In this document: positions 10,169 to 10,246 of the stretch, piece by piece
How positions within the stretch are numbered: position 1 is the stretch's first letter
How the letters are laid out: every line of letters begins with the position of its first letter
Source of the DNA: Alphaproteobacteria bacterium
GTDB lineage: Bacteria > Pseudomonadota > Alphaproteobacteria > Micropepsales > Micropepsaceae
Assembly: GCA_947474565.1 (NCBI GenBank)
Contig: CANJIS010000006.1
Coordinates: 62,001 to 126,000 of the forward strand
Length of the DNA: 64,000 nt
Reading direction: 5' to 3'
Notes under the pieces: generated by a model
What the model was told of the DNA's origin: nothing
The model's database searches: none
Seen by the model: the letters and a program-made list of their open reading frames with translations, nothing else
Position numbers and translations under genes: made by a program

Positions 10169-10246
10169 GATTCACAGTGATTCGGTGGGACTCCCCGGTC
10201 AAGAGTCTCGTTGAATCAACGCGTTAGAAATTGAGTCCCCGGATTC
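10169..10246 (-). promoter_or_regulatory. Cluster of seven GANTC sites over the ccrM leader and rnhB 3' end
   Basis: GANTC, the target of the enzyme encoded next door, occurs at 10169, 10179, 10189, 10203, 10213, 10233 and 10242. Spacings are 10, 10, 14, 10, 20 and 9 bases, so most sites lie on one face of the helix. Three are in the 57-bp gap before ccrM and four inside the end of rnhB. A weak promoter can be drawn on the minus strand, TTGACC (10197-10202), 17 bases, CACTGT (10174-10179), in which one GANTC abuts the -35, one lies in the spacer and one touches the -10. Control by methylation state is inferred from Caulobacter ccrM. Confidence 0.7.

Follow-up and report, generated by a model that had tools for sequence, protein, structure and literature searches.

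Introduction

In Caulobacter crescentus, the promoter of ccrM, the gene for the GANTC-specific adenine methyltransferase CcrM, contains two GANTC sites and is activated by CtrA, according to the available text of two reports (PMC10073500, PMC2217572). The presence of GANTC in this promoter is known for Caulobacter, as is, in outline, its control by methylation, and this organism has supplied most of the work on a model question of bacterial epigenetics, namely how Alphaproteobacteria keep CcrM to a brief part of the cell cycle. At Caulobacter promoters where GcrA acts together with GANTC, the methylation state is set by replication and by CcrM, as described in the accessible parts of PMC3667746 and PMC4287350. 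Outside the cell-cycle methylases, the methyltransferase genes of CfrBI, AhdI and LlaDII are described, in the available part of one source (PMC12707154), as responding to methylation of the promoters from which they are expressed. GANTC has been counted in the promoters of cell-cycle genes in a study of 37 genomes, the accessible part of which draws no conclusion on control (PMC2877005). The ctrA promoters of Rhodobacterales are scarce in GANTC, which is given in the available text as a hint that replication-driven changes in methylation may lack a major role there (PMC8116508).

Here we analyzed a cluster of GANTC sites upstream of ccrM in a genome of the Micropepsaceae; the window is the whole stretch of 64,000 nucleotides that was analyzed. 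The locus resembles the Caulobacter ccrM promoter in that the same gene, encoding the same methylase, has GANTC in its predicted promoter, that ctrA is encoded in the genome and that a TAA resembling a CtrA half-site is found as a putative element. It differs from the Caulobacter promoter by having six to seven sites rather than two and a register that adjoins the predicted -10 hexamer, which the Caulobacter sites may share. When the N-terminus of Caulobacter CcrM was compared with the surveyed loci, the best had 84–86 identities of ~102, with no clear Caulobacter relative among them.

As at ctrA P1 and other GcrA-dependent sigma-70 promoters of Caulobacter, for which GANTC in or near promoter elements is described in the available text (PMC3667746, PMC4287350), GANTC is present in the -10/-35 region of the predicted ccrM promoter. 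In Caulobacter, 96 cell-cycle starts are reported to have GANTC no further than 50 bp away, and 11 of these have more than one (PMC4287350, accessible part), compared to seven in 78 bp here. Unlike what would be expected of a GcrA/GANTC promoter, the site at the -10 hexamer of ccrM does not track the presence of GcrA across the class. The predicted promoter region also holds the recognition site of the methylase that it would express, as with CfrBI, AhdI and LlaDII, and closing by methylation, which is reported for CfrBI in the available text (PMC12707154), is proposed below for ccrM. In contrast to these three, CcrM is grouped with the orphan, cell-cycle methylases in the available text of PMC10073500, and several sites are present at once. 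In the open-access literature searched, we found no description of a class-wide GANTC register at ccrM, of the array of six to seven sites in the family or of its persistence without GcrA.

Materials and Methods

Three sets of ccrM loci were compared. The family set was drawn from 96 Micropepsaceae genomes, 85 of which had ccrM at E 1e-60, and 80 loci were examined; five genomes (G022, G040, G077, G088 and G089) were excluded, along with an additional, partial match in G060, as they came without the gene start or upstream DNA, and two loci with identical upstream regions (L018 and L019) were counted twice. The order-level sample consisted of genomes of the same family only. The class set was drawn from 290 evenly sampled genomes, 222 of which had a ccrM match at E 1e-60; its 80 loci, from 57 families, were taken from the best matches listed, so that they are related to each other and are those most similar to this CcrM. 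The named set comprised 80 of 589 named relatives, which we take to be mostly Rhodobacterales, and included seven loci already present in the other sets (L162–L167 and L209).

The -35 element was searched for as TTG[AC]C, and TTGCC was found in only one locus. Distances are given from TTGAC. Register counts refer to loci with TTGAC followed by GANTC (65 in the class set and 73 in the named set), unless 80 loci are given.

Results and Discussion

The GANTC cluster upstream of ccrM

The best family model for the ccrM product was NF050803 (CcrM, Caulobacter-type), with 646.7 bits, which is below the cut-off of 830 bits. Seven GANTC sites are found at 10169–10246 of the window (Table 1), and a recount of their start positions agreed with the spacings of 10, 10, 14, 10, 20 and 9 given in an earlier, sequence-only reading of this DNA. 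An additional, eighth GANTC is found at 10294.

Table 1. Features of the ccrM upstream region (window coordinates). Promoter elements are predicted; signed numbers are distances from TTGAC.
Feature	Coordinates	Strand	Remarks
ccrM, GANTC adenine methyltransferase	9071..10141	-	ATG at 10141; matches CcrM of PDB 6pbd, E 3.6e-170
GANTC +29	10169..10173		between -10 hexamer and predicted start; poorly conserved, specified bases 48–78% (58 genus sequences)
Predicted -10 hexamer CACTGT (form CANNNT)	10174..10179	-	17 bp after TTGACC
GANTC +19	10179..10183		final base is first base of predicted -10 hexamer; 79/80 family, 43/80 class, 67/80 named
GANTC +9	10189..10193		in -10/-35 spacer; +7 to +11 in 78/80 family, 57/65 class, 69/73 named
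Predicted -35 element TTGAC	10198..10202	-	overlaps rnhB stop codon
rnhB, ribonuclease HII	10199..10867	-	two RNase HII models above cut-off
GANTC -5	10203..10207		adjoins -35 element (GACTCTTGAC); within 1 bp in 67/80 family, 7/65 class, 5/73 named (all five could be family repeats)
GANTC -15	10213..10217		+/-2 bp in 76/80 family, 34/65 class, 62/73 named
Conserved TAA	10224..10226	-	9 bp upstream of -15 GATTC; 92/99/99% in 75 family loci anchored there
GANTC -35	10233..10237		+/-3 bp in 71/80 family, 17/65 class
GANTC -44	10242..10246		~-77 from predicted start; +/-3 bp in 67/80 family, 16/65 class loci with TTGAC core

The window contains 116 GANTC, compared to 244 +/- 13 expected from shuffles, and 864 kb of the same genome contain 1428 (1.65 per kb). 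Over 464 kb of the genome, 1.62 per kb were observed, compared to 3.86 per kb expected from a first-order Markov model, a depletion of more than twofold that was noticed in the genome sample made up of the window and L243–L282. Against this scarcity of GANTC, the array is all the more conspicuous. From the observed density, some 1e-5 clusters of seven sites in 78 bp would be expected per genome, and the runner-up in the 864 kb searched (~40% of the genome) had four sites. That runner-up is located at L276 15108–15162 on contig C2 of the same genome, with gaps of 6, 6 and 38.

A predicted sigma-70 promoter with GANTC at fixed registers

The pattern TTGAC-N14-GANTCANNNT, in which one GANTC is set against a -10 hexamer, was found in 79/80 family, 43/80 class and 67/80 named loci (60/73 of the named loci after removal of repeats), and the 43 class loci span 32 families. 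When the +19 offset was scored without being preferred, the numbers were 73, 42 and 65 of 80, respectively, and each of the remaining offsets from +16 to +21 was found in 0–4 loci per set. The +19 site was present in 79 family, 43 class and 67 named loci; in every one of these the base at +24 was A, and the base at +28 was T in 43/43 class and 67/67 named loci and in 97% of the 79 family loci. These two bases played no part in the choice of loci and are yet invariant or almost so, as would be the case for a -10 hexamer. We read the pattern as a predicted sigma-70 promoter of the form TTGAC(N)-17 bp-CANNNT, in which the final base of GANTC is also the first base of the -10 hexamer; in the window, transcription is predicted from the spacing to start near 10167. 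The anatomy and its registers are documented by their conservation in all three sets, and the promoter predicted here would be the one that ccrM uses.

A generic sigma-70 scan called no promoter at this position because A2 and T6 are the only consensus bases of CACTGT. TTGAC-N13..15-GANTCANNNT occurred once in 864 kb of the genome, at ccrM; allowing TTGCC with N14 added one further match, in L281. The design is common but not universal: 15 of the 80 class loci and 7 of the 80 named loci had no TTGAC followed by GANTC, and another 22 class loci had it without the +19 register.

None of the seven sites is located downstream of the predicted start, which places them in the promoter rather than in the leader. 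The sequence-only reading had placed them over the ccrM leader; the tie to ccrM was borne out by conservation in family and class, while the position was revised to the predicted -35 and -10 elements and the DNA just upstream of them. Judged from its occurrence in the three sets, the -15 site is one of three registers common to the class, and the -5 site is chiefly a feature of the Micropepsaceae (Table 1). The TAA between the -15 and -35 sites possibly represents a CtrA half-site, for which the motif TTAA is given in the available text of PMC4287350; the window has CTAA, and the assignment is putative.

Conservation of the sites

In the family, GANTC is found at similar distances from the ccrM start codon. 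At least five sites between -70 and +40 were present in 76 of the 80 family loci, and all six registers (-44, -35, -15, -5, +9 and +19) were present together in 47. Over the 150 bp that precede ccrM, the density ranged from 17.8 to 59.8 per kb in the family and from 15.3 to 31.8 per kb in the class, where it was 22–32 per kb at 50–150 bp upstream, compared to a background of 0.3–2.8 per kb more than 250 bp upstream and inside ccrM. Within 250 bp, at least two GANTC were found in 73/80 class loci and at most one in 7/80. Relatives with the same ccrM context but no GANTC enrichment, which would have spoken against the sequence-only reading, were not the rule, these seven class loci being exceptions.

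A GANTC trio with gaps of 21–26 and 9–13 (typically 23 and 11) was found in 56 of the 80 loci of the named, mostly Rhodobacterales set, which has a conserved GANTC core at ccrM. This core can be set beside the hint, in the available text, that methylation changes may matter little at the ctrA promoters of that order (PMC8116508).

In an alignment of 58 sequences of the genus, the columns specified by GANTC were more conserved than the other columns (0.81 vs. 0.63, P = 2e-4), the latter excluding TTGAC, A24, T28 and TAA. The +9 site looks weak in this alignment but was found in 78 of the 80 family loci when 2 bp of tolerance were allowed. In the class, GANTC is kept at this site with any of the four bases as N (A/C/G/T 16/11/16/14), as it would be if the target of the methylase were important. 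The N base of the +19 site was C in 33 and A in 10 of 43 class loci, and that of the -5 site was C in 58 of 58 genus sequences; part of the conservation at these two sites may therefore reflect promoter sequence rather than methylation. Together, the conservation in family and class supports selection of the sites as DNA and a tie to ccrM.

A proposed methylation-sensing feedback switch

The reading that we favor, with a probability of roughly 0.6, is that the array is a sigma-70-type ccrM promoter which carries the targets of CcrM at fixed registers and works as a methylation-sensing feedback switch. The registers place one site against the predicted -10 hexamer, one in the -10/-35 spacer and one just upstream of the -35 element, with extra upstream copies in the Micropepsaceae. 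Passage of the replication fork would leave the sites hemimethylated, in which state the ccrM promoter could fire, with help from CtrA, perhaps bound at the TAA element. Newly made CcrM would then remethylate the sites and shut the promoter, so that the enzyme would be made in a single pulse per cycle, and a larger number of sites would be expected to make this closure steeper or better timed. A self-closing promoter is the simplest reading of the anatomy. We infer that the promoter would be on when hemimethylated and off when fully methylated, that CtrA would activate it and that extra sites would be of benefit. That both regulators are encoded in the genome (CtrA with 420 bits against a cut-off of 350; GcrA, see below) was counted in its favor.

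With a register against the -10 hexamer that is independent of GcrA, the methyl mark could act directly on RNA polymerase. A wider version, which we regard as tentative, would extend this to many Alphaproteobacteria: the mark at the -10 hexamer and in the spacer would itself alter the access of sigma-70 polymerase without GcrA, and the promoter would be an old self-closing oscillator that GcrA and CtrA joined later and that was amplified to six to seven sites in the Micropepsaceae. The recurring arrangement in the class (TTGAC-N14-GANTCANNNT with GANTC in the spacer and upstream) makes it possible to test directly whether RNA polymerase is gated by the methyl mark, and genomes without detectable GcrA provide a natural separation of the mark from its best-known reader.

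GcrA and other possible readers of the array

The array could instead be a platform for GcrA, which would bind the methylated sites cooperatively and recruit or block sigma-70 RNA polymerase at ccrM. GcrA is encoded in the same genome (PF07750, E 9.9e-48, 163 bits against a cut-off of 26.9; 177 bits against the NCBIfam Caulobacter-type cut-off of 280, which is not reached), and it prefers methylated GANTC, according to the available text of PMC3667746. The same text reports that GcrA covers -35 to +7 of the fully methylated ctrA P1 and only ~12 nt around the -35 region when this promoter is hemimethylated on the plus strand (PMC3667746).

Across the class, a GcrA match at E 0.001 was found in 63 of the 80 genomes (62 above the Pfam cut-off). 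The remaining 17, from 15 families, had no match to the Pfam model at E 0.001, nothing over the Pfam cut-off at E up to 10 and no match at E up to 0.1 to a profile built from 21 GcrA sequences. This profile recovered four positive controls at about 1e-37 to 1e-50; three of them (G340, G113 and G289) are rows of the profile, and G137, whose GcrA went from 2e-12 with Pfam to 7e-37 with the profile, is the sole independent control. A GANTCANNNT within 230 bp of ccrM was found in 12 of these 17 genomes (10 families), compared to 40 of the 63 with GcrA, and the exact +19 register in 11 of 17 and 32 of 63, respectively. The presence of the -10 site does not follow that of GcrA across the class, and the site persists where GcrA is not detectable, while a diverged GcrA or a second reader of methylation could exist in the 17 genomes. 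GcrA had been proposed earlier as a reader of the array; it is encoded here and may contribute, but its necessity is weakened by the 12 genomes, and GcrA as a requirement for conservation of the site is rejected. A GcrA platform is accordingly an account to which we give only a minor share of probability.

It should also be noted that a GANTCANNNT word (GACTCATGTT) is found ~115 bp upstream of the gcrA start in L242 and L258; a scan of the gcrA upstream region found no TTGAC at the ccrM spacing.

The cluster could also be a landing site, where CcrM itself or a SeqA-like protein with a preference for hemimethylated DNA represses or sequesters the promoter, so that the size of the cluster and not its register would matter. 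Cluster size does vary, with at least six GANTC within 250 bp in 21 of the 80 class loci, and operator-binding methyltransferases are shown as a regulatory mode of restriction-modification systems in the available part of PMC12707154 (Figure 4). Pure titration, however, needs no registers, and three sites hold promoter registers across many class loci, which makes a landing site improbable compared with the feedback switch.

The sequence-only reading had further proposed that the sites are helically phased and read by one protein face. Within the window alone the phasing is modestly unusual: R was 0.74 at 10.5 bp, and when seven sites were placed at random without overlap, 0.4% of the placements gave as high a value (P ~0.004), or 0.9% with the period left free between 10 and 11 bp. 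High values were also obtained in the family (0.67) and the named set (0.82) because related loci share positions, and phasing inside the Micropepsaceae could be shared descent. In the class, by contrast, phasing at 10.5 bp was absent from the 101 sites, those at -15 among them, that lie upstream of the -10/-35 core in the 43 loci with a +19 site (R = 0.02, compared to a mean of 0.10 for the null), and the spacings of the core follow the promoter. A weak excess at 9–9.5 bp (R = 0.25) was below the maximum of the null, which was run at 10.5 bp (0.275). The class result rules out helical phasing as the organizing rule of the arrays, and single-face reading of phased sites is very unlikely.

The rnhB tail

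Four of the seven sites lie within about the last 15 residues of rnhB, and the coordinates of the open reading frame confirm their reported place in its final codons. The two RNase HII models above cut-off both stop at residue 202 of 222, which leaves the final 20 residues outside, and tails such as GDESGDSI..ALIPQDS mirror the DNA array. In the 74 family loci with an rnhB match (six had none), rnhB ended upstream of every array site in 16, inside the array in 55 and past the ccrM start in 3. At least four sites within 160 bp of the ccrM start were kept in 13 of the 16 loci with an early rnhB end; L070–L072 have two sites within 160 bp and the rest of the cluster further upstream. In L026, the GANTC sites persist with an in-frame stop inside the rnhB tail. 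The array kept in the loci with an early rnhB end and in L026 supports the remark that the tail is shaped by DNA, and the same loci rule out a requirement of the rnhB protein as the cause of the array. Chance or a by-product of rnhB coding sequence, for which the four sites in rnhB codons would speak, is refuted by the family-wide conservation, by the persistence of the array where rnhB ends upstream of it and by the ~1e-5 such clusters expected per genome, and is given practically no weight.

Other sequence elements

At 10255–10266 on the minus strand, 52 bp further upstream than the -35 element, there is a palindrome-like word, ACCACATCTTGT, whose form in the family is CCACAACATCTTGTGTGG. 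In the family it occurs at about -58 to -76 from TTGAC and is kept even where rnhB has ended; within two mismatches it was found in 10 of 19 loci with ended rnhB, compared to 2 of 400 random 80-bp segments. We take the word to resemble an NrdR box. Two ribonucleotide reductase genes were compared with a self-made 14-base consensus, a third such gene being located on C17, and one of the two has a weak match (three mismatches) in its upstream region. A palindrome common to ccrM and gcrA was suggested by the 864 kb and dropped, as genome-wide there were 5 matches with at most one mismatch to ACAACATCTTGT, compared to 12 for a reversed control pattern; the match at gcrA is thus probably due to chance.

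Between the -10 hexamer and the ATG, a DnaA-box-like TGTTGAT is found at 10158–10164 (minus strand). The form TGT[GT]GAT was present in this interval in 42 of the 80 family loci and in only 2 of 65 class loci, and such words were therefore rejected as part of the class design.

Further upstream, two adjacent open reading frames on the minus strand (12097–13185 and 13415–14530) are similar to each other and have signal-peptide-like starts, apparently the result of a tandem duplication, as judged by eye from the list of open reading frames.
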